Positions 6,767 through 61,954 of a DNA stretch of 64,000 bases are shown piece after piece. The notes under the pieces were generated by a model. That model saw nothing but the letters and a program-made list of their open reading frames with translations, had not been told where the DNA came from and did no database searches. This stretch comes from Ehretia macrophylla (taxonomy: Eukaryota > Streptophyta > Magnoliopsida > Boraginales > Ehretiaceae): the NCBI GenBank assembly GCA_037974665.1, contig CM075783.1:46957318-47021317 (forward strand). Reading direction: 5' to 3'. Position numbers and translations under genes: made by a program. Each line of letters opens with the position of its first letter. Positions within the stretch are counted from its first letter, which is position 1.

Positions 6767-9225
6767 TGTGAGACCCCGTACTGAGCCCATGAGTATTTTA
6801 TAGCATTTCATATATTTTTGCATCATTTAATATGCATTTATATCAATTAATGTATATTTACATCATTTAACGTGTATTTGTATCGATTTACATGCATTTC
6901 ATTGGTTAAGGTACATTTGGGTAATTAATATAGCGTAGCTAGTAATTATAACCTATCTAGTTCAATAGCTAGTTAGAGTAACTAAACTAGAACTAAAACA
7001 ATTAGAATTAATACTAGGATGACAAACTAGTAAAACACAATCTAGTTGGAGAGCAATCTCGTTATTAGAAAAATTAGATATTATCTATCAACACACACTA
7101 TACCACTTACACACACTAAAATACTACAACATACACAAACACACACCAATCCCCACTCACCTACTCAACACACATTACACCACATACACATATAAAAACA
7201 CTACACATACTTAGATTTTATACCATAGAAAGAAGGAAAAAAAAGAGAGAGAAAGGAAGGAGAAGGAATAAGGAAGTCATCTTCAAGCTTCCTAGCACCA
7301 TTTCTTGCATTCAATCATAAAGCTAAGGTGAGAGAGTTTTCATTCAATGTTTTAAAGCACATCCAAGATTACATGACATAAATGTATTGATTAATCTTGC
7401 TTATATGTTCGTAAGGTGTTTATGGTGATGATTGAGTGTATTTGGTGTTCTTGCATTCAATCATAAAGCTAAGGTGAGAGAGTTTTCATTCAATGTTTTA
7501 AAGCACATCCAAGATTGCATGACATAAATGTATTGATTAATCTTGCTTATATGTTTGTAAGGTGTTTATGGTGATGATTGAGTGTATTTGGTGTTCTTGC
7601 ATTCAATCATAAAGCTAAGGTGAGAGAGTTTTCATTCAATGTTTTAAAGCACATCCAAGATTGCATGACATAAATGTATTGATTAATCTTGCTTATATGT
7701 TCGTAAGGTGTTTATGGTGATGATTGAGTGTATTTGGTGTTATAGATCTAAGAACTTGTTTAACTTGTATGGGAGAGTTGGAGGAGTTGAATGAGGGGAT
7801 AGTTGTGGTTCTTATTTATGATAGGTTGCATTTAGCTAGAATTTGATGTTGAAATTCAAAGACAAGCCTATTGGGTTTAGTAAGTGTTCTAGGTGTTCTT
7901 GGTGTTCTTGAAGGTTGATTTTGAGAATTGTGTACTACGTTGATTTCTTGGTGAGTTGGTAATTGATTGTTGATGTGTGGTGGTTTTGATTGAATTTGAA
8001 CCCTTATATGATGCCCATAAACTATATTGAATATGTTTGATTGATGGTAGGAGGTGGTGTGGATTGTAAGATTGATTTTTGTAAAAATTGTGTCTTTCCC
8101 GTGCAGCTATCCGGGCATTACAGCCCCTATCCAGTCACCTGGAGAGAGGCCACAACGCCTTGTAGAAAGCTCCGATCCGGGTATTACCTGCTTCATCCGG
8201 GCGACTGGATTAAGGCTACAACACCCGGATGTTTGACAGATTTGCGCAATGATTTTTCGAAGGCCATATATCATTCGTTTCAACTCTGAATTGCATTCCG
8301 TTTGATTATAGAACTATTTATTTCGATAAGCTTCGATTCTAGGCCAAAATCAGATTAATTGGAGTTTGGTAAAGTAGGTAAATTTATCTCCTAAGTTGGG
8401 CTAATGCAAAAGAGTTGGGGATATTTCATAGTTTCGTTCATGCTTGCATTTTATTGTCGTTTTGAGTTGTTTTAAGGTATCTTTACACCCTCCTTTAGTA
8501 TATGACCATGTTGAGTTCTTCTACATGGTATTGGTATGGTCAAGCAAGGTGGGTATTGGTTTTATGATTATCTAAACTATGCACATATCACTACATGTCC
8601 ATATGACTACAAGACAATTGATCGGCAAGTTTACATGATGCGAAATATAGAATATAGTCGAATGAACTAAATGATTGGCTAAACTTACTTGTTTATGTAA
8701 ATGCATTTGAATTGTTAAAGCGTGTCGATTGCAACCATTAATGAATGTGATAGCAACGAGACCTCCGGGCAGCAACGAGCTCGCTGGTATATCTCGCTTA
8801 CCGAGGGAGAAACGAGACCTCCAGTCAGAGGTAAGGCTTGCTGGTATATCTCGCCTACCAAATGTTATCACCTCTTCTCTTTCAAGACTCATTGGTCCTC
8901 CTACGGGTCGAGACTCAATGATATCTAGGAAGAGCTAGGTTGTTAAAGACTCATTGATCCTCCTACTGGTCGGGACCCAATGATATCTTAGAAAAGTTAG
9001 ATTGTTAAATATTACTAAAGCTTGATTGCATATCTTGTATTCTCATCCGAATATCCTTCCGTGCATGTCATGTTTTATCAAACTGATTTCAAAAAGATAA
9101 AACCTTTGTGAAAACCTTCCTTGTTTTCCTCATCACTGAGCTATACGCGTGGATCTAGCTCACTCCTCTTTCTAACAATTTCAGGTGACTATTTGCTTGA
9201 GCAAACTCCCATGTGGATTGCAAGC
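6767..9225 (+). mobile_element. LTR I, plus-strand LTR of the D-like group, 3' end missing
   Basis: Starts TGTGAGACCCCGTACTGAGCCC. It shows the shared LTR plan: CACATATAAAAACAC TATA-like box near 7190, GA-rich leader at 7230-7270, donor-like TAAG|GTGAGAG at 7328 (repeated at 7474 and 7620), GC-rich box at about 8760-8860, hairpin TGAGCTA...TAGCTCA at 9137-9162, and CTAACAATTTCAG|GTGACT ending at 9184. It is broken at 9225 by another LTR start, so its terminal TGACA is absent. No credible protein gene is present. Confidence 0.7.
7304..7741 (+). repeat. 146-bp tandem repeat, three copies, in LTR I
   Basis: The landmark GCATTCAATCATAAAGCTAAGG recurs at 7307, 7453 and 7599, giving an exact 146-bp period. 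The copies look almost identical (for example ATTACATGAC versus ATTGCATGAC, and TTCGTAAGG versus TTTGTAAGG). Each copy carries the donor-like AAG|GTGAGAG, so this site is triplicated. Near-identity implies a recent local expansion. Confidence 0.95.
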
Positions 9226-14969: not shown

Positions 14970-15053
14970 CTAATCATAATAAGCAGAAATCATTCTCGTC
15001 AACCAAGGTTCTCCATCATCAACTTGAGGGGCATGTTCGGGCACTACCTCACC
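14970..15053 (-). CDS. Acidic micro-ORF in LTR D
   Basis: Directly after an acceptor-like ATACAG|G the minus-strand frame reads GEVVPEHAPQVDDGEPWL and a short tail to a stop (28 codons). It is not clearly homologous to the VDESY type of LTRs A/C, but has the same position, small size and acidic, proline-containing composition. Translation is unproven. Confidence 0.3.
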   Translation of the reverse strand, partial: GEVVPEHAPQVDDGEPWLTRMISAYYD

Positions 15054-20073: not shown

Positions 20074-20165
20074 GTGTTACTGATTCTGATTACGGGTACG
20101 TGCCTCTTGAAGGGGAAAATGTGCCTTTCGTGGATGAGTCTTATGCACAGGAGTCATTGCCATGA
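20064..20165 (+). CDS. Acidic micro-ORF in the C 5' LTR
   Basis: 33 codons plus stop, starting ATG CAT GCA, with GVTDSDYGYVPLEGENVP and FVDESY in order and ending SLP-stop. The 3' LTR copy (47343-47435) ends early with a TGA two codons after YVQ. Core residues are shared with LTRs A, L, M and O. The ATG lies only 26 bases after TATATAAG, so if that box drives transcription the ATG may precede the RNA start. Alternatively the frame begins in a spliced exon. Confidence 0.45.
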   Translation: MHAGVTDSDYGYVPLEGENVPFVDESYAQESLP

Positions 20166-23931: not shown

Positions 23932-24005
23932 GAGACGCTGAGGGTGATCCCCAGCTTGTTGATTTAGTTGAGGAAGAAGAAGTTCAGATCGAGCCTTTAC
24001 CTTAG
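23931..24005 (+). CDS. Acidic micro-ORF in the B 5' LTR
   Basis: After TTTCAG the frame reads GDAEGDPQLVDLVEEEEVQ and ends IEPLP-stop. The 3' LTR copy (41339-41413) has one substitution, Gln to Pro. The position directly after an acceptor-like site, acidity and a Leu/Tyr/Phe-Pro-stop end match the micro-ORFs of LTRs C, A, L and F, although the sequences are not otherwise alignable. Confidence 0.35.
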   Translation, partial: GDAEGDPQLVDLVEEEEVQIEPLP

Positions 24006-24872: not shown

Positions 24873-26770
24873 ATGGGGCCTCGCCGTCGTGCTGATAATC
24901 CGAATGTTGGTGGAGAACCCGAGGGGGTTCATGGGCAAGAAGCTGAGGTGGCCGAAAATGCACCGCAGGTTCAAGAACCGAGCACTGCACAGATCTTGGC
25001 CACGATGGCCACAGCTATGAACACTATCGCCCAGTTTGTTACACAACAGGGTCAGCCAGGGGTCGTTGGAGGTAATCAGGCTGCGAGAGCCGGAGGTAGT
25101 GGCCCTACCGGAGGGAATCTGTATGATCGGTTTATACATCATGGGGCCTATACTTTCTTTGGGGAGCCGGACGATATGAAAGCTGAGATGTGGCTAAGGA
25201 AGTTCGAGGGAGTGGCAGCGATACTGGAGTGCCATGATGACAGGAAGATTACTTATGCTACTTTCCTTCTCGAGGGTGATGCTGAAGATTGGTGGAATAC
25301 CATCAGTGAGAAATGGGGAGCTGAGGGAGTTCATCATACGTGGGCCGACTTTGTCCGAGAATTTCGAGACAAGTATATATCGGTAGTTGCCCGCGAGAGG
25401 CGACAAACTGAGTTCATAAACTTGAAGCAGGGAAGTATGACGGTAGATCAATACGAGGCTACTTTTACCCAGCTTTCCTGTTATGCACCAGCTTTAATTC
25501 AGCTGGAGGACATGAAGATTCAGAGGTTCATCCTGGGTTTGAGGAGAGATATTATGCTGAACTTGTCTTCAAATGATTTTCCCAACTATGCTGCAGTAGT
25601 CCGAGCTGCCTCGAGATATGAGAAACGGAAGGCCGATGTGTTAGCCGAGACCAGTCAGTCGAGTAAACGGTTTCAGTCTCAGAGTCAAGGGTACCAGGGG
25701 CAGGCTGTATCAGTTGGGCAGAGTTCACAGCCGAGGCAGACTCAGAGTTACACAGGGCCTACTCAGACTCAGGCACGACCAGTCCAGAGTCAGACTCAGA
25801 GTCAGTTCCGTCCAGCAGTTTCCCGTTCGCAGCAGGGTAGTTCAGCTACCTCTACTTACAGAGCTCCTTCGGGAGGCACTGTTGCAAGACGTCACCAGCA
25901 GTGCAGCTTCTGTCAGCGCCAGGGCCATACTGAGGATGTTTGTTGGAAGAAACATAACAAGTGTACAGGTTGCGGCAGTGATCAGCACAGGGTTAAAGAC
26001 TGTCAGAAATTTAAGAACCCTAGAGGTCAGACATCAGCTCAGAATTCTCAGACCAGGGCACCAGCTGCAGCACCACCACCACGAGGCCAGGCCCGTGTAT
26101 TTGCTTTGGATGCTGAGGAGCTTCCGGATACTACCGCTGTGGTAGAAGGTATTTTTCTTCTTAATGATCAATCAGTTAAGGTTTTAATTGATTCCGGGGC
26201 TTCGCATTCTTTTATTACTCCTACTTGTGCACAAAATGCTAAATTGAAACATGATAAACTGTTGCATGAGATTGTGGTTTATACTCCTATGGGTCCGAAG
26301 TTTGTTACTAGATCTATTTGCAGAGCATGTAGTATATTTATTGAGGGTCGTGTTTTTCCTGCTGATTTGATTATCCTACCCTTCAATGACTTTGAAATTA
26401 TATTGGGGATGGACTGGTTAAGTAAATATTATGCCCAGCTTGATTGTAGAAAGAAGATTGTGTATCTAGAAATGCCTGACCAGCCTATACTTAAAATAGT
26501 TGGTAGTAGAAAATCTACGGGAACTCCTATTATTTCTTCTATTAGGGCATCTAAATTATTGAGCAAGGGTTGTGAGGCTTATCTTGCATATTTGATTAAT
26601 CAACCTGGGGATCAATTGAAATTGAATGATGTACCTATCGTGAGAGAGTTTCCGGGGGTCTTTCCTGAGGAATTACCTGGGTCACCGCCTGATAGAGTGA
26701 TAGAGTTCATGATTGATTTATTGCCGGAGACTTCACCTATCTCTAGGACTCCGTACAGAATGGCTCCACC
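24873..26770 (+). CDS. Element B gag-pol, first part: gag, CCHC knuckles, protease
   Basis: ATG at 24873 opens a basic N-terminus (MGPRRRADN). The capsid core follows at about residues 90-270 (FFGEPDDMKAEMWL, FLLEGDAEDWW, GSMTVDQYEATFTQLSCYAP, FILGLRRDI), then a Q/S/T-rich linker. CCHC knuckles start at residue 344 (CSFCQRQGHTEDVC) and about residue 364 (CTGCGSDQHRVKDC). The aspartic protease has VLIDSGASHSF (Asp at residue 440) and [16 protein letters not shown]. The part ends at YRMAP where A is inserted; the apparent continuation to 26834 reads into A's LTR. Function: capsid formation, RNA binding and polyprotein cleavage in cytoplasmic virus-like particles. No stop or frameshift. Confidence 0.95.
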
Positions 26771-27538
26771 TGTGAAACCCCACTTTCTTGCTTATCTCGT
26801 TTTACGTGCTTTACCTCGTTTTGCGTGCATATGATCTGTTTATGTGCTATAGGACCTAGAAAGTTATAATTTTGATGTCAATACTTCTAATACGTGCTAA
26901 ATGTGCATTCATGAAATTTTCATAAAAAACGGAGTCAGAAATTTTATCGTCGATTTTCAGTGAATAGTGTTTTCGAAACACGTCCGCTATAATTTTGAAA
27001 CTGGTCTTTTTAACCCTTCTAGACCTAGTCCACGGACTTTAATAGACCTGTGTTTGATGAAAACGGTTTTAAAATCGGCTTAAGAATTTATTAGGGTTTT
27101 TACACCGACTTTTGCGAAAATCGAGTTTTAAGCCGACTCGGGTGAAATTGTTGAATTGTAAAACTTCTTGTCACCTAAAAATAATCCACTTGAGATATCT
27201 TGGGGGTTGCATAATTATTTTTAACTTGGTGAGCACTAAAATGCAATTAAAGTCATTAAAAACACAAAAATACCTATTAAAATTAACTTTGACTTTAATT
27301 AATTATTTGACCTTATAAGCTAATGTCCGCAACACACACTCACACAACACAAAAACACCATCACACACACACACAAGGCCAAGAGAAAAGAGGGAGAAAA
27401 GAGAAGAGAAAAACTCAAGCTTTCAATCCAATTTTTTCAAAGAAAAACCTAGTTTTTGTCCGTAGAACTTCGCACCGACTTGGATTCTGCTTGTTGGGCA
27501 CGCATAGCATGCATTCCTAGGCTTATATCGCATCTAAG

Positions 27539-28702
27539 GTGAGAGAAAAATTCTAGATCTCAAAATGTCATTTTTGTGTTTTTGCGTATAAATGAAGATT
27601 GAACCGTTAGAATTGAAATCTGATGTTAGATTATTGCTCCTTGCATGCTAGGGATCATTATATACTAATACTACGAGTTTCTGTCAGATATAGCATAATT
27701 TTTATTTTTCGGGTATTTAATTTTGATTAAAATGTTCAAAGTTGAATTAAATGAGTTGTGTTGATCGAAATCGATTGCCGTCGATTTCTAAATACTTGAT
27801 AATTACGTGTTAGCGCTGTTGTAATGCCGAATTTTCGATTACATTGTTTGTGTGAAAATCCGAAAAATCCAGCCATGACATCTTAGGATTTTAGGGTTAT
27901 CGGGCATGATTTGGAGGTGTTATGGTGGATTTCCGAGAGGGCTAATGTAGTAGGTTGAATGGGTGAGTGATAGGAACTGATTTGGCAATGTTTGGATTAG
28001 TAGATTGTAAGTTATGAATTTTAGAAGTTTAGGTTGTCATTCTTTAATTTCTTGAACGATGCCTTAGATGGTTGGGTAGTGTTCGAGTGATGAATGGTGA
28101 GTTGTTGATGAGTAATTTAAAGTTTAATTAAGTATATTATGCATGTCCGGTTAGATGGCCTACTTTGTCATCTAACTACGTTGTTTGTTGTTTAATTTAA
28201 TATTGATGTTATATTGATGTTATTGATTGATTATTATTGAATGCGGGAATCGGGCACTCTTGTTGCTGATCTCCCAATTGATTGATTGATGATTGATTGA
28301 TGATTGATGATTATGGAGTCTTGGTATGTGTGTGCCACCTCTCGGGCAGCGTCGGGCTGTCGGGTTGATAACGGCATGACTGCCATAGGCTACCCCCAGC
28401 TCGCATGACGGAGGTGTCATGGAGGGAGGGGCTAGTGAGGTACCTCGGGTGCGTGAGTAATGGGGAGTTATAAGAAGAACGGTTGAGATCGTGATGGCGT
28501 TTGGAGCTACACCAAATAGAGTATCCTTATTGATTGGTTATATAGTTATGTGATGATAGCATTATTTGTGTTATTATTGTTGTTGTGTGTTTACTTGCTC
28601 AAAGGACTAAATCCAAGGAGCGTAGTGAATACTGTCGAGATCTATCGGATCCTCACTGGGCTTATGTATATAAGCTCACTCTCTATTATTGCATGTTTTC
28701 AG
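27539..28702 (+). other. Putative leader intron in the A 5' LTR
   Basis: 1,164 bases between TAAG|GTGAGAG and TGTTTTCAG|GTGTGC. The 3' LTR has the same pair at 34966-36129. The acceptor has a better pyrimidine tract than in C. It is proposed from conservation across families, not from RNA data. Confidence 0.4.
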
Positions 28703-28803
28703 GTGTGCTTTCACAAGATTACGGGTACGTGCCTCCTGAAGAGGAGAATGTGGAAAACGTGCCTTTCGTGGATGAGTCATATGTCCCTGAGTCTTATCCA
28801 TGA
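28693..28803 (+). CDS. Acidic micro-ORF in the A 5' LTR
   Basis: 36 codons plus stop from ATG TTT TCA. The frame runs SQDYGYVPPEEENV, a three-residue insertion relative to C, then VPFVDESYVPESYP-stop. The same frame is open upstream from 28585, but only the part after the acceptor-like site is conserved between families. The identical copy in the 3' LTR is at 36120-36230. About one third of the residues in the second half are acidic. No known domain is recognised. Confidence 0.5.
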   Translation: MFSGVLSQDYGYVPPEEENVENVPFVDESYVPESYP

Positions 28804-29203
28804 TTCTATGTTGTTAAACGTTATGTATATTAGCTTAATGGACTTTTATATGCTTTACGGTTCTAGGTGTAATAGTTGTTGAAAAGATAATGATCTAAAT
28901 GATGTTAATTTAGTGGCTTTCTTTTGCCTATGGTCAAGTTGTAGTTGTGTCTCAACTTACTTTTGAAATGTATGATAAAGTTGAGGTATTGTATGTCATG
29001 TTGGAACGGAGGCGTATAACGAGGATGTTTTATTGTATAATATGGTTGTGTTGTATGTTGTTGTTTGTATTGAGGAATTACGGGATGTATGATGTTTTTT
29101 TGAGGTTGGTTTAGAACCTCGGAAATCTGTTTACTGTCGTTATGCCGCCGAAATTCCGTTGCGTCCTGACTGATTATAGGTGGGGTCGAGTTGGGGCGTG
29201 ACA

Positions 29204-29473: not shown

Positions 29474-32400
29474 ATGGCCGGTCGACCGAGAACCAGAGGT
29501 AGGCCTGAGATGGCTGATGAGACTCCGAGTAACGTGGCACCGGGCCGTGACGGGGGTGATGACCGATTAGGAGCAGCTATGGAGCGGATTGCAGAGTTAG
29601 TGGCTAGTCAGGCACAGTTGTTAGCAGGGCAGGCTGCCCAGAATCAGGCTATGCAGGCTCAGCTTCTGAATATTCAGGGTGGTAACCACGGGCGTGGTAC
29701 CCTGAAGGAGTTTTTAGGATATCACCCACCGAGATTTCAGGGGGAGCCGGATGATAGGAAGGCGGAGGTATGGATTAGCAAGTTGGAGAAGATTTATGAT
29801 CCACTTGGCTATACTGATGAGCAGAAAGTCTCTTTTGCCGTGTATTTGTTAGATGACGAGGCAGAGGAGTGGTGGCGCACGGTAAGGACTAGCTGGGCGG
29901 CGCAGGGTATTCCTTATGTTTGGGGTACCTTTCTGATGGCTTTCCGAGCAAAGTATGTCCCGAGGATTTGCAGGGAACGGAGAGAGGCCGAGTTTCTAGC
30001 TTTGGTCCAGGGAGATGCTACAGTGGCTCAATATGAGGCCACATTTACTCGATTGTCCCGGTATGCACCGGAGTATGTGGCAGACGAGGAGCGGAGGACT
30101 CGCAGGTTTATGTTGGGGTTACGGCCCGAGATTCAGGATGTTATGGCTCTGAATCGATATGATATTTTCACTGAGGCTTTTGAGGCAGGTTCTAGGTTAG
30201 AGAAGAAGAAAGGGGATCAGATTGTCTCGAGACAGCCTAGTTAGAGGCCCTATCAGCACCAGGGCCAGCAGGTTATATATAGGCCTCCAGTACAGCAGGT
30301 TGTCTACAGGCCACCAGCCCCGCAGGGTTCTTATAGGCCACAGGGTCAGCAGAGTTACTATCGGCCTCAGTTTCAGCAGAGGCCATATCAGGTTCAGACT
30401 CAGTATAGGCCAGCCCAGTCTCAGGGTCAGTATAGGCCTAGTGTGGTGAGACCTCAGCAGCAGGCTGTATCAGCTGCTTCTTCAGCTTCTGGTTATTCTA
30501 GGGGCAGTGTTAGTGCCACATCATCGCAGTGTAATTACTGCAAGCGCCCAGGGCATGTAGAGTCCGACTGCAGGGTAAAGGCAGGGACATGTTTGGGTTG
30601 TGGTAGCAGCGAGCATAGGGCGAAGGATTGCCCTAAATATGCGAGGACTGAGGGTCGGGCAGCGACTCAGGGTTACCAGGGTAGGCCTACGGGCAGTGTA
30701 CCACAGCAGCAGCGGGTTCAGGCTCGGGCTTATGCAGTTGACTTAGAGGAGATGCCTGAGGAGACTGCAGTTGTGGAAGGTAACTTCCTTATACTTGATC
30801 AACTTGTTAAAGTGTTGATTGATTCTGGTGCTACGCATTCTTTCATTACTCCTGCTTGTGTGCAACGTGTTAAAATGCAACCTGAAAGATTGCCTTATGT
30901 GGTTGAAATTAGTACCTCTTTGACTGATAAGTATGTTACTGGCTTAGTATGTAAGGATTGTATAATACATGTTAAGGGGCATAATTTTCCTTCGGACCTT
31001 ATTTTATTTCCTATCCGGGGGTATGATGTTATTCTGGGTATGGATTGGCTTTCTAAGTATGATGCCCAGTTGAACTGTAGAACCAAGGTAGTACAGTTTC
31101 GCTTGCCGGATCAGCCAGTAGTAGAGGTAGCGGGTAACCGGGGTGCTAAGACGAGTTTTGTTATCTCAGCAACTAGAGCCGTTAAGTTGGTGAGTAAGGG
31201 GTGTTCGGGTTATCTAGCTTATTTGATCAACAAGCCATCTGATAAGCTACAGCTAGAGGAAGTCCCTATTATCCGGGAATATCCTAATGTATTTCCCGAG
31301 GAGTTGCCAGGGTTGCCGCCTGAGAGGGATATAGAGTTTGTGATTAATCTTGTTCCCGGTACTCAACCTATTTCTAAATCGGCGTACCGGATGGCACCAG
31401 CTGAGTTGAAAGAGTTGAAGACTCAGTTACAGGAGTTGTTGGAGAAAGGATTTATTCAGCAGAGTTCTTCACCTTGGGGAGCTCCTGTTTTGTTTGTGAA
31501 GAAGAAGGATGGTACTTTGAGGTTATGTATAGATTATCGTGGGTTGAATCAGGTGACTATCAAGAATAAATATCCTTTGCCACTGATTGATGAGTTGTTT
31601 GATCAACTTCAGGGAGCCAAAGTCTATTCTAAATTTGATTTGAGGCAGGGGTATTATCAGCTTCGGATTCGTACGGAGGATGTTCCGAAGTCTGCCTTCA
31701 GAACTCAGTACGGGCATTATGAGTTTGTTGTTATGCCCTTTGGATTGACTAATGCACCGGCAGCTTTCATGGATCTTATGCATCGAGTCTTTCAGCCGTA
31801 CTTGGACCAGTTCGTGGTGATTTTTATTGATGATATCTTGGTCTATTCTAAATCTGAATTGGAGCACGAGCAACATCTACGGCTTGTATTAGAGAAGTTG
31901 CAGGAGCATCAGTTGTTTGCCAAGTTCAGCAAATGTGAATTTTGGCTGCAACGGATTTCTTTTCTTGGCCATGTTATTACACAGAGCGGTATTTCTGTAG
32001 ATCCCACTAAGATTGAATCGGTGATGTCTTGGAAGCGGCCAGAGAGTGTTACTGATGTCCGTAGTTTTCTTGGCTTGGCGGGTTATTACCGTAGGTTTGT
32101 CAAGGACTTCTCAAAGATTGCGGGGCCACTATCTAAGTTGACTCAGAAACGGACTATCTTTAATTGGGACGAGAAGTGTGAGAGTGGATTTCAGGAGTTG
32201 AAAAAGAGGTTAACTACCGCTCCAGTACTTGCTCTACCAGAGGGGACCGATAATATGGTCATTTACAGTGATGCATCCAAGGAGGGCTTGGGATGTGTTC
32301 TTATGCAGGATGGCCGAGTTATTGCCTATGCTTCCAGGAAGTTGAAGCCTTATGAGGTGAATTATCCGACTCATGATCTTGAGTTGGCAGCAGTTGTCTT

Positions 32401-34297
32401 CGCACTGAAAAAGTGGCGTCATTATCTGTGGGGCAGTAAGTTCGAGATTTTCACTGATCATAAGAGTCTAAAGTATTTATTCTCACAGAAAGAGTTGAAT
32501 ATGCGCCAGCGGAGGTGGATGGAGCTTCTTGGAGATTATAATTGTTCTATCAATTATCTGCCTGGAAAGGCAAATGTTGTAGCAGATGCTCTCAGCCGGA
32601 AGGCTAGTATTTCTTGTTTGGCTGTCAAGAAGTGGGAGGTTCTTGAGGAGTTTAGTTATTGGAGACCAGAGTTGACTCAGGTTGGGGTGATGTGTTCACA
32701 TCTCCGTATTCAACCTTTATTATTGTCTCAGATCAGGGAAGCTCAGCAACTTGATGTTAAACTTCAGAAGATCAAGGATCAGATCACTGATGATCAGTCT
32801 GACTTCAAACTGCATGAGGACGGTATTCTTCGGTTTCGGAACAGGGTTTGTGTTCCCGATGAACCGAGCTTGAGACGAGGTATTCTGGAGGAAGCTCATA
32901 ATTCTAAATATACTATTCATCCCGGTGGAACCAAGATGTATCGGGATTTGAAGCAACATTACTGGTGGAACAACATGAAGAGGGAGGTTGCTCAGTTTGT
33001 GTCTAGATGTTTGACTTGTCAGAGAGTGAAAGCCGAGCATCAACGACCAGCAGGTTTGCTTCAGCCGTTGGCTATACCAGAGTGGAAATGGGAGCATATT
33101 ACGATGGACTTCGTCACTGGTTTGCCTAGATCACCGAGGGGTAATGATGCAGTTTGGGTTGTCGTGGATCGTTTGACGAAGACAGCTCATTTTATTGCCA
33201 TGAGGTTGGGAGATGAGGTTACAAAGCTGACGGATCTCTATCTGGATCAGATTGTTAGACTTCACGGTATTCCATCTAGTATTGTCTCTGATCGAGATCC
33301 TCGATTTACTTCTCGTTTGTGGGAGAAACTTCAGGAGACCTTAGGTACTCAGTTGAACTTCAGTACCGCGTATCATCCACAGACCGACGGTCAGTCTGAG
33401 CGGACTATTCAGATTCTGGAAGATATGCTTAGGGCTTGTGTTCTGGACTTCGGGAAGAACTGGGAGAAACATCTACCACTTGCCGAGTTTGCCTATAACA
33501 ATAGTTATCAAGCTACTATTGGGATGGCACCTTTCGCAGCTCTTTACGGTCGTAAGTGCCGTTCACCTTTATATTGGGACGAGGTAGGAGAGATGAAGAC
33601 TATTGATCCGACTATTATGCCAGAACTTCTTGAGAAGATCGAGAATGTTCAGTTGATCAGGCAGAGAATGCTTACGGCGCAGAGTAGATTCAAGAGTTAT
33701 GCTGATAAACGTCGTCGAGACTTGGAGTTTGCAGTTGGAGATCGGGTTTTCTTGAGATTGTCTCCTCGAAAGGGGTTTGTTCGTTATGGTAAAGGTGGTA
33801 AGCTGAGTCCGAGATTTGTTGGGCCGTTTGAGATTACTGGCAGGGTTGGTAAGTTGGCATATCGGTTGGCTTTACCGGAGAACTTCTCTAATGTCCACGA
33901 TGTGTTTCACGTGTCTAATTTGCGAAAATATAATCCGGATCCTTCTCATATTCTTGAGCCAGAGCCGTTACAGCTTCGAGAGAATTTGACTTATGACGAG
34001 CGTCCGATTCGTATTCTAGATCAGATGGACCGAGAGTTGAGGTCGAAGAGGATTCCGATGGTTAAGGTGTTGTGGAAGCATCACGGCATTGAGGAAGCTA
34101 CGTGGGAGAGACGAGATCAGATGCAGCAACAATACCCAGATCTTTTCCGTACATCAAGTAAGAATTTCGAGGACGAAATTTCTATAAGGGGGGGAGAATG
34201 TGAAACCCCACTTTCTTGCTTATCTCGTTTTACGTGCTTTACCTCGTTTTGCGTGCATATGATCTGTTTATGTGCTATAGGACCTAGAAAGTTATAA
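29474..34297 (+). CDS. Element A gag-pol polyprotein with one in-frame TAG
   Basis: ATG at 29474 ([12 protein letters not shown], as in C). Domains: capsid core about residues 75-250; in-frame TAG at 30242-30244 (codon 257); linker with repeated YRP; CCHC knuckles from residues 353 and 373 ([28 protein letters not shown]); protease DSG at 450; RT with FIDD at 784-787; RNase H with YSDASKEG (Asp 933) and [10 protein letters not shown]; integrase with MDF (Asp 1212), SDRDPRF (Asp 1273) and QSERT (Glu 1309), giving the D,35,E spacing; GPY/F-type [12 protein letters not shown]; chromodomain about 1510-1558 ([20 protein letters not shown]). The frame passes through the purine tract and about 33 codons of the 3' LTR. 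Apart from the TAG all catalytic motifs are intact. The TAG may be a disabling mutation or be read through. Confidence 0.93.
34163..34198 (+). promoter_or_regulatory. Element A pre-PPT hairpin and polypurine tract
   Basis: AATTTCG-AGGA-CGAAATT forms a perfect 7-bp stem at 34163-34180. AAGGGGGGGAGAA follows at 34186-34198 and abuts the LTR. The purine tract primes plus-strand DNA synthesis in LTR elements; the role of the hairpin is unknown. Confidence 0.8.
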
Positions 34298-36630
34298 TTT
34301 TGATGTCAATACTTCTAATACGTGCTAAATGTGCATTCATGAAATTTTCATCAAAAACGGAGTCAGAAATTTTATCGTCGATTTTCAGTGAATAGTGTTT
34401 TCGAAACACGTCCGCTATAATTTTGAAACTGGTCTTTTTAACCCTTCTAGACCTAGTCCACGGACTTTAATAGACCTGTGTTTGATGAAAACGGTTTTAA
34501 AATCGGCTTAAGAATTTATTAGGGTTTTTACACCGACTTTTGCGAAAATCGAGTTTTAAGCCGACTCGGGTGAAATTGTTGAATTGTAAAACTTCTTGTC
34601 ACCTAAAAATAATCCACTTGAGATATCTTGGGGGTTGCATAATTATTTTTAACTTGGTGAGCACTAAAATGCAATTAAAGTCATTAAAAACACAAAAATA
34701 CCTATTAAAATTAACTTTGACTTTAATTAATTATTTGACCTTATAAGCTAATGTCCTCAACACACACTCACACAACACAAAAACACCATCACACACACAC
34801 ACAAGGCCGAGAGAAAAGAGGGAGAAAAGAGAAGAGAAAAACTCAAGCTTTCAATCCAATTTTTCAAAGAAAAACCTAGTTTTTGTCCGTAGAACTTCGC
34901 ACCGACTTGGATTCTGCTTGTTGGGCACGCATAGCACGCATTCCTAGGCTTATATCGCATCTAAGGTGAGAGAAAAATTCTAGATCTCAAAATGTCATTT
35001 TTGTGTTTTTGCGTATAAATGAAGATTGAACCGTTAGAATTGAAATCTGATGTTAGATTATTGCTCCTTGCATGCTAGGGATCATTATATACTATTACTA
35101 CGAGTTTCTGTCAGATATAGCATAATTTTTATTTTTCGGGTATTTAATTTTGATTAAAATGTTCAAAGTTGAATTAAATGAGTTGTGTTGATCGAAATCG
35201 ATTGCCGTCGATTTCTAAATACTTGATAATTACGTGTTAGCGCTGTTGTAATGCCGAATTTTCGATTACATTGTTTGTGTGAAAATCCAGAAAATCCAGC
35301 CATGACATCTTAGGATTTTAGGGTTATCGGGCATGATTTGGAGGTGTTATGGTGGATTTCCGAGAGGGCTAATGTAGTAGGTTGAATGGGTGAGTGATAG
35401 GAACTGATTTGGCAATGTTTGGATTAGTAGATTGTAAGTTATGAATTTTAGAAGTTTAGGTTGTCATTCTTTAATTTCTTGAACGATGCCTTAGATGGTT
35501 GGGTAGTGTTCGAGTGATGAATGGTGAGTTGTTGATGAGTAATTTAAAGTTTAATTAAGTATATTATGCATGTCCGGTTAGATGGCTTACTTTGTCATCT
35601 AACTACGTTGTTTGTTGTTTAATTTAATATTGATGTTATATTGATGTTATTGATTGATTATTATTGAATGCGGGAATCGGGCACTCTTGTTGCTGATCTC
35701 CTAATTGATTGATTGATGATTGATTGATGATTGATGATTATGGAGTCTTGGTATGTGTGTGCCACCTCTCGGGCAGCGTCGGGCTGTCGGGTTGATAACG
35801 GCATGACTGCCATAGGCTACCCCCAGCTCGCATGACGGAGGTGTCATGGAGGGAGGGGCTAGTGAGGTACCTCGGGTGCGTGAGTAATGGGGAGTTATAA
35901 GAAGAACGGTTGAGATCGTGATGGCGTTTGGAGCTACACCAAATAGAGTATCCTTATTGATTGGTTATATAGTTATGTGATGATAGCATTATTTGTGTTA
36001 TTATTGTTGTTGTGTGTTTACTTGCTCAAAGGACTAAATCCAAGGAGCGTAGTGAATACTGTCGAGATCTATCGGATCCTCACTGGGCTTATGTATATAA
36101 GCTCACTCTCTATTATTGCATGTTTTCAGGTGTGCTTTCACAAGATTACGGGTACGTGCCTCCTGAAGAGGAGAATGTGGAAAACGTGCCTTTCGTGGAT
36201 GAGTCATATGTCCCTGAGTCTTATCCATGATTCTATGTTGTTAAACGTTATGTATATTAGCTTAATGGACTTTTATATGCTTTACGGTTCTAGGTGTAAT
36301 AGTTGTTGAAAAGATAATGATCTAAATGATGTTAATTTAGTGGCTTTCTTTTGCCTATGGTCAAGTTGTAGTTGTGTCTCAACTTACTTTTGAAATGTAT
36401 GATAAAGTTGAGGTATTGTATGTCATGTTGGAACGGAGGCGTATAACGAGGATGTTTTATTGTATAATATGGTTGTGTTGTATGTTGTTGTTTGTATTGA
36501 GGAATTACGGGATGTATGATGTTTTTTTGAGGTTGGTTTAGAACCTCGGAAATCTGTTTACTGTCGTTATGCCGCCGAAATTCCGTTGCGTCCTGACTGA
36601 TTATAGGTGGGGTCGAGTTGGGGCGTGACA
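34199..36630 (+). mobile_element. 3' LTR of element A
   Basis: 2,432 bp, nearly identical to 26771-29203. By-eye differences include CATCAAAAAC/CATAAAAAAC, GTCCTCAAC/GTCCGCAAC, GGCCGAG/GGCCAAG, one T fewer in the poly-T near 34860, AGCACGC/AGCATGC, CTATTAC/CTAATAC, GGCTTAC/GGCCTAC and CTCCTAA/CTCCCAA. TATATAAG is at 36094-36101 and the micro-ORF at 36120-36230. Confidence 0.95.
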
Positions 36631-39510: not shown

Positions 39511-41926
39511 CTTACTTTTGTGACTACTATTCACTCCGTTTTTAAACTGATTTCTATTAGTTAATTAGCATTTTTATTAAATCATATTAATTGTAAAAGT
39601 AGTGGGAAAATGTGCATTTGAGCTAAAGGCATTAGGAGAGCTCATTTAGAAAATGACTTTTGTAGTTGAATGAATAGTGTTACGTAACTAACTTAGGTAA
39701 TTAACTAGCTAGCATATATTTTACTATCTAAGCTCGTTTTAAGCTCAATAAGCGCATTATATTAGATCACTTAAGCACCCAAGCTTGACCCCACCCAACT
39801 AAAAACCTTAAATAGCAACTAAGGCTCACAAAACACAAAACAAAAGAAAAAAAAAGTGGGCAGAAACACTGTAGCTGGGCCGAGAGCAAGGAGAAGAGAA
39901 AAAAAAAAGATTTTGCTCATCAACTCTCCAAATCAAGCCACTCCAAGCCTTGAGCAACTAGTGTAGGGTGTTTGCAAGGTTCCTAGGTGCTCCTACGCGT
40001 ATTGGTGAGGGGTTTCACGGCTTGTTTTTGCATTTTTAAATAGTTGCTCATTTCTTGATTTGTTGAAAATATGATTAAATGCCATTGTAATTGTTATCTA
40101 TGCTAATATACCATCTATATGAATGCTAGAGAACACATTTGAGCCGTTGTTTCGCTTTTTAAACGGTTAGAATCGTTAATTTGAAATTTTGGGTGAATAG
40201 TGACGTTTTTCTAGGGTTTTGCGTAATTGCTCGAATTAGCTTGATTTAATGCTTCTAATAGACGCCTTAGGTGTTAGTGAAGGTAACCTAAAAGCCCCGT
40301 GTACTTGCATTGTCTATAAATCGCCTAAAATGGAAAATAGCCGACTTTAACTTGGGGCTTTTGGGGTTAATGCGAATCCGGGTGGATTCGGGCTTCAATT
40401 CTAGTATCCTTAGGCTACCTAGGTGCTATAGATGCCTTGATATCCCTTGTTTGAAGCCCGGACAATGTACGCGTAGTTTAAAGCCATAAGAGGAAATTTG
40501 GGGCTTTCGGGGTAATCGCGGGTATTTGAATGAGTTAGAGGGTTGAGAGGGTACCTTGAGGGTTAGTTAGAAGGTTGGGAGAGTTCTCTTTGAAAATGAA
40601 ATCATTAACTTTGGTTTGGAAAAGAAATAGTTCGAAAAACAAAGGGGTTTAGGTGCTATTTAGGTTGTCTCGCACTTCTAAACCCATGTCATGACTTCTT
40701 GAGTGTTTATAAGTGATTTTAAGTTGATTTGGAGCTTTTGGTATGATTCTAAACTTATCTTGCTAATGTCTCTTTGTAAAACTGCATATTTGCTTATATA
40801 ATTGTTCTATTCTAATTGCATCGAGGTCAACCTACTTTGTTGATCCTCATGTGTGTTAATGCTTATATTATTGCTATTAACTTGCCATCGTTAAGTGCAT
40901 TGCATAGTGGTTGCGCAACCATAGTGTCAGGGGCGGATGTGTTGAATATCGGCTGGGCGGCAGAGGGCTTGCCGGTGGATATTCAAACTCCGTGCCCTAT
41001 TCCCTCATTCGCCTGGTCCGGAGATTGCCAGGGGATGTTGGGTCGTAGGATTCAGGGTACATCCGGAGTACACCCACTGGAGTGTTTGGGGATTATACCG
41101 GCTTATCGTGATCGTGCTCGTGGTTCGTGGATCGTGAATGAAGACCAGTAAAGATTGGTGTATAGGGGATTGTGTGAAATGTATCCTTTTTTAATGTGTG
41201 GATTACTTAAGTCATCATTGTTTCTTAAATTGTCTAAGTGAAATTGCTGTATAACTGTATTATCTGTTGCATTGCACGCCCCGGGACTATATCCCTCACT
41301 GGGCAACAGTGGTTGCTCATACCTCGATATCTGTTTCAGGAGACGCTGAGGGTGATCCCCAGCTTGTTGATTTAGTTGAGGAAGAAGAAGTTCCGATCGA
41401 GCCTTTACCTTAGTTGCTGTGTTTGATAGCTTGAGGTGGTTAATGAATTGCTGGTATGTGGAAGATTCATCTGATTACCTTATGTACTATTTTGTAGCCC
41501 AAGGGCTATGTATATGCTTGTTATATAAGTTGAAGACTAGTTGGTTGTGTTGTAGCTTTGAAAGCCTATGAACTGTAATAACTTATAATCTACTTCTATT
41601 CGCTTTGCTTGCTTGGGAGTGAATGACTTAAAGTAGAAATGTTTGGTCTTCCAATTATGTTTAATTGATTTCCTAGAATGTCATGATTATAAAACTATGT
41701 TGATAATAAGTTCTCGCATGCTTGTGTGTTTTGGAACTATTGTGTACCATAAGGCTCGGATGGCCTTAGAACTTTGTTGTTTATTTAAGAAAAGCTTGTA
41801 TTGTATTGTTGGGACTTTGTTTAAGTGTTTACAGATTTTTAGAATGTCCACGGTACAGGGGAGACTCTGTCCGTGTGTCGGGTCCGGACTTAACCTTTAG
41901 CTTGGGGGTTGGGTCGGGGCGTGACA
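39433..41926 (+). mobile_element. 3' LTR of element B
   Basis: 2,494 bp. The first base is A instead of T (AGTGACGCCCGAG versus TGTGACGCCCGAG at 22024). About 35 differences from the 5' LTR by eye, mostly transitions. The micro-ORF copy is at 41339-41413. The apparent 111-codon frame at 40816-41151 is the GC-rich block again. Confidence 0.95.
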
Positions 41927-41931
41927 GCGAC

Positions 41932-44900
41932 TCAGGGTTATCAGGGTCGACCAACTGGTGGTGCACCTCAGCAGCAGAGGGTTCAGGCTCGGGCCTACGC
42001 AGTTGACTTGGAGGAGATGCCTGAGGAGACTGCAGTTGTGGAAGGTAACTTCATTATACTTGATCAACTTGTTAAAGTGTTGATTGATTCTGGTGTTATG
42101 TATTCTTTCATTACTCCTGCTTGTGTGCAACGTGTTAATGTGCAGCCTAAAAGATTGCCTTATGTGGTTGAGATTAGTACCTCTTTGACTGATAAGTATG
42201 TCACTGGCCTAGTTTGTAAGGATTGTAAAATACATGTTAAGGGGTATATTTTTCCTTCAGACCTTATCTTATTTCCTATCCGGGGGTACGATGTTATCTT
42301 GGGTATGGATTGGCTTTCTAAGTATGATGCCCAGTTGAACTGTAGAACGAAGGTAGTACAGTTTCATTTGCCAGATCAGCCAGTAGTTGAAGTAGTAGCG
42401 AACCGGGGTGCTAAGACGAGTTTTGTTATCTCAGCAACTAAAGCTGTTAAGTTGGTGAGTAAGGGGTGTTTGGGTTATCTAGCTTATTTGATCAACAAGC
42501 CATCTGATAAGCTACAGCTGGAAGAAGTTCCTATTATTCGGGAATATCCCAATGTATTTCCCGAGGAATTGACAGGGTTACCGCCAGAGAGAGATGTGGA
42601 GTTTGTGATCAATCTTATTCCCGATACTCAACCTATTTCAAAATCAGCGTACCGGATGGCACCAGCTGAGTTGAAAGAGCTGAAAACTCAGTTGCAGGAG
42701 TTAATAGAGAAGGGTTTCATTCAGTAGAGTTCTTCACCGTGGAGAGCACCTGTTTTATTTGTGAAGAAGAAAGATGGTACCTTGAGATTATGCATTGACT
42801 ATCGTGGTTTGAATGAAGTGACCATCAAGAACAAATATCCTTTGCCATTGATTGACGAGTTGTTTGATCAACTTCAGGGAGCCAAAGTCTACTCTAAGTT
42901 TGACTTGAGGCAGGGGTATTATCAGCTTCGGATTCACAAGGAGGATGTTCCAAAGTCTGCCTTCAGGACTCGGTACGGGCATTATGAGTTTGTAGTTATG
43001 CCCTTTGGATTAACTAATGCACCGACAGCACTTATGGATCTTATGCATCGGATTTTTCAGCCATACTTAGACCAGTTCGTGGTGATCTTTATTGATGATA
43101 TCTTGGTTTACTCTAATTCTGAATCGGAGCACGAGTAACATCTACGGCTTGTCTTACAAAAGTTACAAGAGCATCAGTTGTTTGCGAAATTCAGCAAATG
43201 TGAATTTTGGCTGCAACGTATATCTTTTCTTGGCCATGTTATCACACAAAGCCGTATTCTGTAGATCCCACTAAGATTGAATCGGTGATGTCTTGGAAAT
43301 GTCCGGAGAATGGTTTGGAGGTTCGTAGTTTTCTTGGCTTGGCGGGTTATTACCGTAGGTTTGACAAGGACTTTTCTAAGATTGCCGGGCCACTTTCTAA
43401 GTTAACTTAGAAACATACTAGCTTTGTTTGGGATAAGAAATGTGGGAGTGGGTTTCAGGAGTTGAAAAAGAGATTGACTACCGCTCCAGTACTTGCTCTA
43501 CTAGAGGGGACCGATAATATGGTTATCTACAGTAATGCATCCAAGGAGGGCTTGGGATGTGTACTTATGCAGAATGGTCGGGTTATTGCCTATGCTTCTA
43601 GAAAGCTGAAGCCTTATGAGGTAAATTATCCGACTCATGATCTTGAGTTGACAACTGTTGTTTTCTCACTGAAAAAGTGGCTTCATTATTTGTGGGGCAG
43701 TAAGTTCGAGATTTTCACTAATCATAAAAGTCTTAAGTATTTATTCTCATAGAAGGAGTTGAATATGCGTCAGCAGAGGTGGATAGAACTTCTTGGGGAT
43801 TATAATTATTCTATCAGCTATCTGCCTGGGAAGGCAAATGTTGTGGCAGACGCTCTTAACCGTAAGGCGAGTGTTTCTTGTTTGGCTGTCAAGAAGTGGG
43901 AGGTTCTTGAGGAATTCACTTATTGGAGACTGGAGTTGACTCAGGTTGGGGTGATGTGTTCACATCTCCGTATTCAGTCTTTATTGCTGCCTCAGATCAG
44001 AGAAGCTCATCAACTTGATGTTAAACTTCAGAAGATCAAGGATCATATCACGGATGATCAGACTGACTTCAAAGTGCACAAGTATGGTATTCTTCGGTTT
44101 CGGAATAGGGTTTGTGTTCCCAATGAACTGGGTTTGAGGTGAAGTATACTATTCATCCTGGTGGAACCAAGATGTATCGGGACTTGAAGCAACATTGCTG
44201 GTGGAATAATATGAAAAGGGAGGTTGCTCAGTTTGTATCTAGATGTTTGACTTGTCAGTGAGTGAAAGCCGAGCATCAACGACCTGCAGGTTTGCTTCAA
44301 CCGTTGGCTATACCACAGTGGAAATGGGAGCATATTACGATGGACTTCGTCACTGGTTTGCCTAGAACACCGAGAGGTAATGATGCAGTTTGGGTTGTCG
44401 TGGATCGTTTGACGAAGACAGCTCACTTTATTTCGATACGGATAGGAGATGAAGTTGCAAAGTTAACGGATCTTTATTTGGATTAGATTGTCAGACTTCA
44501 CGAGATTCCATCTAGTATTGTCTCAGATCGAGATCCTCAATTTACTTCTCGCTTGTGGGAGAAACTTCAGGAGACTTTGGGTACTCAGTTGAATTTCAGT
44601 ACCGCGTATCATCCACAGACCGACGGTCAGTCTGAGAGCACTATTCAGATTCTGGAAGATATGCTCAGGGCTTGTGTTCTGGACTTCGGGAAGAACTGGG
44701 AGAAACATTTACCACTTGTCGAGTTTGCCTATAACAATAGTTATCAAGCTACTATTGGGATGACACCTTTTGCAGCTCTTTACTGTCGTAAGTGCCGTTC
44801 ACCTTTGTATTGGGATGAAGTAGGGGAGATGAAGACTATTGATCCGACTATTATGCCAAAACTTCTAGAGAAGATTGAGAATGTTCAGTTGATCAGGCAG

Positions 44901-45433: not shown

Positions 45434-47820
45434 TGTGAAACCCCACTTTTCTATCTTATCTCGATTTGTGTGCTTTACCTCGTTTTGCGTGAATTGACCT
45501 GTTTATGTGCTATATGACTTAAAATGTGTTAAATATGTGATTAATACTCCTAATACATGCTAAGTGTGCATTCATAAAATTTTCATAAAAAACGAAATCA
45601 GAAATTTTATCGCCGGTTTTGGTGAATAGTATTTTTGAACACCTGTCCGCTAAAATTTTTACAGGGGTGTTTTAAACGCTTTAAAACCTAGTCCTCGGGT
45701 ATTAATAGACCCGTGTTTGATTAAAATGGATTTGGAATCGATTTTGAAATTTTAAAGATTTTTACACTTTCTTTTGCAAGAAAACGAGTTTTAAGCCGAC
45801 TCGGGTGAAACTATTTTAATGTAACACTCTTTGTCACCTAAAATATAAAGTCTAGAATTAATTTAGGTGTTAATTTAATAGTTGAGCAAGAAATAGTCAA
45901 TAAAATGAATTAAAAGACTAGAAAATAGAATTAAAAGACTAATAAAACTAACATTGACCATTTTTAATATGTTTGACCTTTACTTATATGCATCAACACA
46001 CAATTGAAACAACACAAAACACACTCCAAACACACACAAGGTGGCTGAAACTCCATGGCTTGTTTGTGAGCTTTTTCAACATCCTTTTCAAGCAAATTTT
46101 TCATTAAAAGTTGCAATTCAAGGCCAATTTCCATCAACCAAGACTTGATTCCACCTCTTGAGCATCCATTGAGCATCTTTGTAGCTTCAAAACACATCAA
46201 AGGTGAGAGAAAAATTCTATATCTCAAAAGTCATTTTTTATGTTTTTGCATATAATTGATTATTGAACCGTTAGAATGTTAATTTGAAGTTATATTAATG
46301 CTCAGTGCATGCTAAGGATCGATTATATGTATTCTTGTAAGATTTGAACCGTTGTAGCATAAATTTTTATTTTCGGGTATTTAAAGTTGATAGATTGGCC
46401 ATTTGTTGATTATTTTGAGTTGTAGTGGTTGAAATCGATTGTCATTGATTTCTAAAAGTTTGTTAATTACGTGGTAGCGCCATTATAATGCCGAATTTTC
46501 AATTGTGATGTTGCTGTGAAAATCCAAAAATTTCAGCCTAGGTGCATTGAGGTTTTAGGGTTGTTGGGCTTGATTTTGATGTGTCTTGGTTGGTTTCCGA
46601 GAGAGCTAATGTGGTTGATTGAAAGGGTGAGTGATAGAAACTGATTTGGAGTTGTTTGGATTAGTAGAATGTAAGATATGATTATTTGAAGTTTAGGTTG
46701 TCTTTCTTTAAAATGTTGAGTTATGCCTTTAGATGATTGGGTGGTGTTTGAATGATTGAATTGTGAGTTGTTAATGGTTAGATTAAGGTTTCATTGTGTG
46801 TTTAATGCATGTTAAGTTGGATGGCCTACTTTGTCATCTAACTTAGTTGTTTGTGGTTTAATTGATTATTTGATGTTATATTGATGAAAAGATGATTATT
46901 GATTGATTATTGATGAACCGGGAGATAGTCAACGAAAAAGGTTGTCTTCCTGTGATGTGATGTTTATTATTATTGCTGAGTCTTGGTATGTGTGTGCCAC
47001 CTCTCGGGCAGCGTCGGGCTGATAACGGCATGACTACCAGAGGCTACCCCCAGCTTGCATGACGGAGGTGTCATGGAGAGAGGGGATAGAGAGGTACCTC
47101 GGGTGCGTGAGTAATGGGGAGTTATAAGAAGAACGGTTGAGATCGTGATGGCGTTTGGAGCTACACCAACTAGAGTATCCTTTATTGATTGGTCATTATA
47201 GTTATATGTTTATATTGTTATTAATGTTTTATTGTGTGTTTACTGCTCAAAGGATCATTTCCAAGGAGTATAGTAAATACTGTTAGAGATCTATCGGATC
47301 CTCACTGAACTTGTTTTATATAAGCTCACTCTCTATTATTGCATGCATGTAGGTGTTACTGATTCCGATTACGGGTACGTTCCTCTTGAAGGGGAAAATG
47401 TGCCTTTCGTGGATGAGTCTTATGTGCAGGAGTGATTGCCATGAGATTGTTTGTAGTTGAAGTATTATGATGTATTATAAACCTACTTTAACTTAAAGAC
47501 TTATGTATAATGGTGTAGTAGTCTTCTTTTTATCATGTTTAGATTACTAGTTGGTTTATAATCTATTTTGATATGTATGTATAGATTATGTATTATGTTG
47601 GAACGGAGGCGTATAACTAAGAATGATTATTGTATAATATGGTTATGTTGTATATTGTTAACTTAATTGAGGAGTTAATTGTTGAATGGTTGAGGAGTTT
47701 GGTTGTATGATGTTCTGAGAGGTTGGTTTAGAGCCTCGGTGTCTTAATTACTATCGTTATATTGCCGAAATTCCGTTGCGTCCTGACTGATTGTAGGTGG
47801 AGTTGAGTTGGGGCGTGACA
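45434..47820 (+). mobile_element. 3' LTR of element C
   Basis: 2,387 bp, same order of landmarks as the 5' LTR: donor-like site at 46203, GC-rich box about 46985-47105 (a short deletion removes GTCGGGTT), hairpin at 47306-47328 with one mismatch (TGAACTT), TATATAAG at 47317-47324, acceptor GTAG ending at 47352, and a micro-ORF truncated by TGA at 47433. Confidence 0.95.
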
Positions 47821-61843: not shown

Positions 61844-61954
61844 ATGCATACAGGTGTACTATCGCAGGATTACGGGTACGTGCCTCCTGAAGAGGAGAAT
61901 GTGGAAAATGTGCCTTACGTGGATGAGTCATATGTCCCTGAGTCTTATCCATGA
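61844..61954 (+). CDS. Acidic micro-ORF in solo LTR L
   Basis: ATG CAT ACA, then GVLSQDYGYVPPEEENV, three residues, VPYVDESYVPESYP-stop (36 codons plus stop). It differs from the A copy in very few residues (F to Y in the core). Intact despite being in a solo LTR. Confidence 0.45.
   Translation: MHTGVLSQDYGYVPPEEENVENVPYVDESYVPESYP

Follow-up and report, generated by a model that had tools for sequence, protein, structure and literature searches.

A conserved acidic frame inside Ty3/gypsy long terminal repeats of Ehretia macrophylla as a candidate terminal exon of a spliced gag mRNA

We analyzed a stretch of 64,000 nucleotides (nt) from the Ehretia macrophylla genome (C20:46957318-47021317; hereafter the window), which is made up of long terminal repeat (LTR) retrotransposons nested within one another. 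We propose that a short acidic reading frame inside the LTRs, ~2.4 kb in length, of its Ty3/gypsy elements is a coding terminal exon of a spliced subgenomic gag mRNA, a reading to which we give a probability of roughly 0.54. The genome comprises 1.58 Gb in 20 contigs, and every copy compared comes from this one genome. An earlier note on this DNA had described the frame as a conserved micro-ORF (open reading frame) and had offered, as one option, that it is the last exon of a spliced product. At the level of sequence this option is supported because (i) an acceptor-like site lies at the same point and in the same phase in all eight LTR types (A, C, L, M, O, B, D and F), (ii) an in-frame ATG is missing in 6/6 D, 5/6 F and 4/7 B-group copies, and (iii) a phase-matched donor exists at the gag/protease boundary.

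In the proposed scheme, transcription would start in the 5' LTR and extend into the 3' LTR. At the gag/protease boundary, a donor reading GAA G/GTA (the slash marks the predicted cut) would be joined in phase 1 to an acceptor in the 3' LTR. Exon 1 would comprise the leader, gag and the zinc knuckle, up to the residues VVEG, with exon 2 lying in the 3' LTR. The junction would form a glycine codon (GGT or GGA), and would do so throughout because the exon begins with GT or GA in every type read; 21-32 mostly acidic residues and a stop would follow. The predicted product is thus Gag with its zinc knuckle and an LTR-encoded acidic tail, lacking active protease, reverse transcriptase (RT), RNase H and integrase, and the unspliced RNA would be kept as genome and as Gag-Pol message. 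By subtraction, the predicted intron of element A spans 30780-36129 (5350 nt). It would remove pol together with the polypurine tract and most of U3, which would leave the spliced RNA as a message and not a complete template.

Element A is a Ty3/gypsy element. Its LTRs end in TG...CA, a primer-binding site (TGGTATCAGAGC) lies at 29211, and five pieces of its internal region compared with Pfam matched Retrotrans_gag, RVP_2, RVT_1, RNase H, rve and SH3_Tf2-1. The resulting order gag, protease, RT-RNase H, integrase is that of Ty3/gypsy and not that of Ty1/copia elements. It is probably a chromovirus, with a Chromo match of 20.1 bits (E 6e-4) that falls under the Pfam threshold of 25.1; its clade may be Tekay/Del, to judge from sequence habit, from the length of the LTRs and from the primer-binding site. 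No relatives of the RT were found in viral contigs. In element B the frame is open from 24864 to beyond the predicted donor at 26148, and element A is inserted further along.

All copies of the short frame that had been named for LTRs A, C, L, M and O are present with the reading then given, and the other acidic frames claimed for types B, D and F exist as well (Table 1). A phase-1 LTR exon with an in-frame stop, which would yield Gag only, can be read in each of A, C, L, M, O, B, D and F. The nine listed tails hold 6-9 acidic and 0-1 basic residues per 21-32, and exon lengths differ between types by multiples of three. As judged by eye, the O and D tails are similar (PQEAENEPFVDES in several O copies, PQVDHGEPWFDEN in L153), both types carrying a core such as PQ(x)3(N/G)EP(F/W)xDE. 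In the B-like LTR L125 the exon region is replaced by GTGGCACAGTTGGTGGAGTTGCCTTAG, open in another phase, and it is likewise replaced in L126.

Constraint on the frame is seen at the protein level when LTR types are compared with one another. Besides the window copies we collected 68 genome loci (8 through an A query, 30 through M and 30 through O), which sort by best match into 9 A, 30 M and 29 O; two of them, L009 and L039, coincide with the M and O copies of the window and are possibly counted twice in the third-position and dN/dS tallies. When up to 28 codons were compared, 8 of the 13 between-type pairs, which are not independent of each other, gave dN/dS values of 0.05-0.23 (P 0.001 to 0.024). 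The A-L pair is the lowest at 0.05, with 5.1 synonymous and 1.0 nonsynonymous changes (P 0.003), and values of 0.14 (A-M), 0.08 (A-O), 0.19 (C-M), 0.20 (C-O), 0.23 (M-O), 0.21 (L-O) and 0.17 (B and its diverged relative L123) complete the set. In the same pairs neither shifted frame shows a synonymous excess (lowest P 0.22). Because these between-type ratios are low, the protein-level selection inferred in the earlier note is supported.

A relic, or a non-coding constraint on LTR sequence as RNA or DNA, with a coding signal arising from few informative sites, could in principle mimic this pattern. With 23-32 codons the exon is small, and five pairs lack a significant synonymous excess: A-C (0.50, P 0.14), B123-B124 (0.26, P 0.09), B-B122 (0.38, P 0.09), B122-B123 (0.38, P 0.12) and B122-B124 (0.70, P 0.40). 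In sliding scans of whole LTRs for six pairs, the frame is the top window in C-M and L-M and second in A-L and A-M, but it is not among the top five in A-C and L-C. We nevertheless consider a non-coding origin quite improbable, since the synonymous excess appears in the true frame only, and does so in two distinct LTR groups (A/L/C/M/O and B/B123), and the length differences between types preserve the frame.

In all eight types, GT or GA comes after an AG and leads into an open, usually acidic phase-1 frame, the acceptor lying 2 nt before the first full codon; the same phase holds in the B relatives L122-L124. The acceptor AG is present in 9/9 A, 26/30 M and 23/29 O copies, and the phase-1 frame is open for 24-36 codons in 9/9, 27/30 and 21/29, respectively. 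Just upstream of the acceptor lies a hairpin whose arms differ in sequence between types and keep their pairing: GGGCTT with AAGCTC (A), GAGCTT with AAGCTC (C), GGGCAA with TTGCTC (B), GAGCTA with TAGCTC (D) and GAGCAA with TTGCTC (F). Across 14 distinct rows, with arms placed by hand and loops excluded, 97.6% of cells pair and the covariation is 0.462, as against 0.223 in shuffled rows (0/500 as high), in a calculation that ignores kinship; sliding the partner by one column lowers it to 0.13 or 0.11. The 3' arm passes into a CTCAC or CTCAT sequence that would suit a plant branch point, and a hairpin beside the branch-point region may hold splicing partial.

Could the frame instead be a stand-alone LTR peptide, or an upstream ORF (uORF), read from an ATG in the LTR itself? 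An in-frame ATG adjoins the site in 33/39 A and M copies and in 0/29 O copies; it lies 3 codons upstream of the exon in 8/9 A and 24/30 M copies (one more M copy has two), and in 20/29 O copies an in-frame ATG is found 27 codons upstream. In the O-type copy L042, the exon frame is open upstream through MKVFPKLPIEPSLGFVIYKLTLFADLS to the ATG 27 codons before the acceptor. A TATATAA sequence ~25 nt before the A-type ATG would also suit such a peptide. The position of the ATG, however, differs between A/M and O, and no conserved in-frame start runs across the types: one is present in only 3/7 B-group, 1/6 F and 0/6 D copies, and in 6/6 D copies a stop stands 3 codons upstream of the exon. Because start codons differ between types and are absent in D, a stand-alone ORF cannot be general; in D it is already excluded, and overall we regard it as very improbable. 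Of the micro-ORF described earlier, the conserved acidic frame therefore stands, whereas the micro-ORF as a unit does not, its start codons not being shared. A TATA box with a uORF was likewise rejected as a general reading, the TATATAA being absent from B, D and F and part of the covarying hairpin, although it is possible in A, M and O. Because the acceptor hairpin covaries, the A-group TATATAA appears better read as hairpin loop and arm than as a general TATA box.

The candidate donor was located by a scan of internal regions with no prior position, run because a donor-like motif at the pol end (see below) fails in B, F and D. Elements A, B and C (A and C being close kin) and a minus-strand F/D stretch were aligned. 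Among 66 GTs common to the four, the best is that at 30780, in phase 1, with scores of 8.3, 7.9, 8.3 and 6.5 under an approximate matrix; the runner-up has a lowest score of 5.0 and is in phase 2, and the next phase-1 site reaches 2.9. The site, GAA G/GTA, sits between VVEG and the protease, with the DSG motif 13 residues further on and the start of the Pfam protease match ~20 residues upstream. At the sequence level, a candidate donor placed after gag and ahead of the protease active site is thereby conserved across families. The sequence GAAG/GTA is exact in 5/5 window copies found by protein motif, a sixth, decayed copy reading TAAG/GTA. Twenty genome regions were fetched, 17 of which hold the site, and it is exact in 14 of these (11/13 D-like, 1/2 F, 1/1 B-like and 1/1 O). 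Of 184 conserved residues, just 27 have a codon that is identical in the four families compared, and the donor GAA and GGT belong to this set. Among the 8 conserved glycine codons, no other than this GGT is in the set, and neighbouring codons vary.

Other sources of a first exon were considered. A candidate donor in integrase at 33798 (GKG/GKLSP), in phase 1 in A, B and C, was rejected, as the minus-strand element at 17093 reads GGAGGAAAG there and has no GT. No further stretch is prominent in all LTR scans that might represent a hidden first exon within the LTR, a search in which a very short exon would be undetectable; positions 1846-1926 are the best window in the A-M scan only.

A further candidate donor is the pol-end motif, A/GTAAGAAT, which would join the LTR exon to the end of pol and place the acidic tail after the chromodomain. 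In A and C (TCA A/GTAAGAAT) and in the O copies L104 and L105 (GCA GCA A/GTAAGAAT and GCA ACA A/GTAAGAAT) it is in phase 1, and the frame continues without a stop into the exon. Readable O pol ends came from 3 of 34 fetched regions (16 + 18; L104, L105 and L107; a few others held integrase, the remainder other sequence) and from L079, and F pol ends from 2 of 12 (L138 and L140), with L127 and L173 adding two. On the A, C and O phase match a Pol C-terminal tail had been preferred as the general answer, and it was demoted as B, D and F failed: the junction makes a TGA in B, is in phase 0 with a stop at the second codon past it in F (L127, L138), and is in phase 2 with a stop right after the junction codon in D (L151, L152). 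The LTR exons of B, D and F stay in phase 1 although this donor is out of phase. Moreover, the GT is lost in the O copy L107, and L079 has GG there. A Pol tail as the role of the exon is therefore, in our judgement, rather unlikely, although elements of types A, C and O could employ the gag and the pol-end donor side by side. In B (39.38 kb), F (L127, L138) and D (L151, L152), the pol-end GTAAG or GTAAT combined with the LTR acceptor produces a stop within two codons; this may reflect a second, Pol-terminating splice or chance.

The conservation of the pol-end motif has another possible cause, in that it adjoins a covarying inverted repeat beside the polypurine tract. The repeat of element A (Table 1), which is short and perfect, occurs likewise in B (39.3 kb), C (45.4 kb), L079, L104, L107, L127, L138 and L151, directly after GTAAG in most copies read. 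Between families it covaries (AATTTCG with CGAAATT, AATTGCG with CGCAATT, AATTTCA with TGAAATT, AATTGTG with CACAATT), the encoded residues changing and the pairing being kept; in several other copies (e.g. L105, L131, L152) it is imperfect.

Several observations weigh against a spliced gag message ending in the LTR. The third-position excess that the earlier note had set as a test fails within families, codon-position variability being.046/.027/.046 in M (n=31; the frame is lengthened to 53 codons by the altered end of the window copy) and.096/.061/.096 in O (n=30), a lack that we ascribe to the decay of dead copies. To this are added the five non-significant pairs and the in-frame ATGs of most A, M and O copies, with which a stand-alone ORF is possible in those types. 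The B-like L125 and L126 keep the GT start and have a different, non-acidic phase-1 frame, and the gag of the window copy of element A is interrupted by an in-frame stop at 30242. For the hairpin, the hand placement of the arms and the neglect of kinship count here, as does the finding that only 2 pairs are changed on both sides, with 5 pair types, which shuffles reach in 388/500. As for the donor, the matrix is approximate, and its Glu and Gly are also conserved residues, so that its donor-likeness is partly confounded with protein constraint. Finally, no genomic copy crossing the gag-exon junction was seen for A or for B when 40 of 2066 and 40 of 1643 candidates, respectively, were scored; nor was one crossing the pol-end junction of A among 40 of 2627. 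This absence is weak because a spliced RNA lacking the polypurine tract would be a poor template and only 40 candidates were scored in each case.

The proposed strategy has precedents. The Ty1/copia elements copia of Drosophila and BARE1 of barley make spliced gag RNAs, and shGAG of Arabidopsis EVD is a spliced gag RNA with early polyadenylation (PMC3735527, PMC12786077, PMC8892269). As is predicted for the present elements, a single gag-pol frame is accompanied by a spliced RNA for Gag without Pol, which is thought to give Gag excess. The strategy would be similar, but the elements described here are Ty3/gypsy and do not belong to that group. In BARE1 and EVD, a stop soon after the junction is reached via a frameshift, whereas here the last exon would be coding, conserved and inside the LTR, and the intron would span pol, the polypurine tract and most of U3.

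Among Ty3/gypsy elements, Cer1 of C. elegans is comparable in that its CERV is spliced from gag-frame exons to a downstream exon through TTTCAG, but CERV, with five exons, draws on Gag in part only and has for its last exon an ORF at the env position instead of an LTR exon (PMC10309623). The export of unspliced RNA needs CERV (PMC10309623), which raises the question whether the same splice in the window elements might serve a Gag-derived regulator, for instance one of nuclear export of unspliced RNA, and not bulk Gag. Conservation of the tail sequence beyond the need of a mere stop codon would fit such a role. Against it, the predicted product retains the whole of Gag up to the protease, and the spliced products of copia, BARE1 and EVD serve as Gag (PMC3735527, PMC12786077, PMC8892269); we consider a purely regulatory role unlikely.

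Protein coding inside the 3' LTR is known from plant chromoviruses of CRM group A (CR motif), in which the polyprotein continues into the LTR as the integrase C-terminus (PMC3059260). The exon described here differs in lying ~1.9 kb inside the LTR and in needing splicing, most likely from gag; the pol frame of element A enters the 3' LTR for 99 nt and stops at 34297, far short of the exon at 36130. Splicing or added coding in plant Ty3/gypsy elements is also seen in Ogre, in the env of Bagy2/Athila and in extra ORFs (aORFs), but the Ogre splice joins gag-prot to RT-RH-INT, and the env and aORF cases lie outside the LTR (PMC6317226, PMC7264820, PMC2829016). In the chromovirus CRR of rice, transcripts are spliced with removal of rt and creation of two ORFs, and CRR and Bagy2 env count as further spliced cases (PMC3735527). 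Two sunflower elements produce spliced short gag isoforms, with Tekay absent from the expressed elements reported there (PMC7730604); an extra ORF ahead of gag is reported for Tekay elements (PMC11728184). According to a 2025 review, introns are generally lacking in plant LTR elements, Ogre and EVADE being notable exceptions. Among the titles and abstract openings that our literature search listed, with most subscription journals outside its reach, none describes a Ty3/gypsy element in which splicing joins gag to a coding exon within the LTR. The use of a Ty3/gypsy LTR as a coding terminal exon thus seems to be a new variation on the known spliced-gag strategy.

Ty3/gypsy elements make up a large share of many genomes, and to our knowledge it is still an open question how those of plants with a single gag-pol frame obtain an excess of Gag over Pol. 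The splice, if real, would give a direct and testable answer to this question. More broadly, these elements, and perhaps a whole chromovirus clade, may have found in their own LTR, read as a coding last exon, a solution to the Gag:Pol problem, with one splice removing pol, the polypurine tract and U3; the LTR would then be selected both as protein and as promoter, and the acidic tail might give spliced Gag a role of its own in assembly or in export of unspliced RNA. We advance this combined proposal tentatively, at somewhat less than an even chance. If the splice is real, tail coding would account for part of the LTR conservation, and LTRs would not be usable over their full length as neutral non-coding clocks. 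The gag donor and the LTR exon would then provide two short sequence tags with which existing RNA and peptide data can be searched.

Table 1. Positions within the window of the LTRs, acidic frames, exons, predicted splice sites and paired motifs
Feature	Position	Strand	Remarks
Element A 5' LTR	26771..29203	+	
Element A 3' LTR	34199..36630	+	99.6% identity to 5' LTR
Acidic frame, LTR A	28693-28803, 36120-36230	+	
Acidic frame, LTR C	20064-20165, 47343-47435	+	
Acidic frame, LTR L	61844-61954	+	
Acidic frame, LTR M	58793-58963	+	
Acidic frame, LTR O	4511-4588	-	
Candidate terminal exon, element A 5' LTR	28703..28803	+	(G)VLSQDYGYVPPEEENVENVPFVDESYVPESYP, then stop
Candidate terminal exon, element A 3' LTR	36130..36230	+	Copy that would serve as last exon
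LTR exon, element C 5' LTR	20074..20165	+	
LTR exon, element C 3' LTR	47353..47435	+	Early stop in this copy
LTR exon, LTR L	61854..61954	+	
LTR exon, LTR M	58803..58963	+	Acceptor AG and frame end altered in this copy
LTR exon, LTR O	4511..4602	-	Acceptor CAA/G in this copy
LTR exon, element B 5' LTR	23932..24005	+	
LTR exon, element B 3' LTR	41340..41413	+	(G)DAEGDPQLVDLVEEEEVPIEPLP, then stop
LTR exon, D-type 3' LTR	14970..15052	-	(G)EVVPEHAPQVDDGEPWLTRMISAYYD, then stop
LTR exon, F-type LTR	52778..52845	-	VVEVVPIEMVDEEKEQVEVFP, then stop; acceptor base altered; ends set by hand
D-type hairpin and acceptor, truncated LTR	9132..9185	+	Exon cut short by other sequence
Hairpin GGGCTT...AAGCTC, element A 5' LTR	28658..28677	+	Just upstream of 3' splice site; 3' arm adjoins branch-point-like CTCAC; ends set by hand
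Predicted 5' splice site, element A	30779..30780	+	GTG GAA G/GTAACTTC, phase 1
Predicted 5' splice site, element B	26148..26149	+	GTA GAA G/GTATTTTT, phase 1
Predicted 5' splice site, element C	42044..42045	+	GTG GAA G/GTAACTTC, phase 1
Predicted 5' splice site, further element	55543..55544	+	ATC GAA G/GTAACTTA, phase 1
Predicted 5' splice site, minus-strand element	49608..49609	-	GTT GAA G/GTACTTTC, phase 1; presumed D type
Alternative 5' splice-site-like motif, pol end	34157..34158	+	TCA A/GTAAGAAT; phase fits the LTR exon in types A, C and O alone
Inverted repeat AATTTCG AGGA CGAAATT	34163..34180	+	Between pol-end motif and polypurine tract; covaries

Some M-type loci, e.g. C18:66871108-66876782, are ~5.4 kb apart, and the pol end is missing, as judged by eye, in the 4 fetched copies, which therefore contribute nothing to the choice of donor. 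The M-type elements look non-autonomous, and their LTR exon frame is nonetheless open in 27/30 copies. Within LTR L, tandem repeats with a unit of about 112 bp occupy positions 60995-61453.

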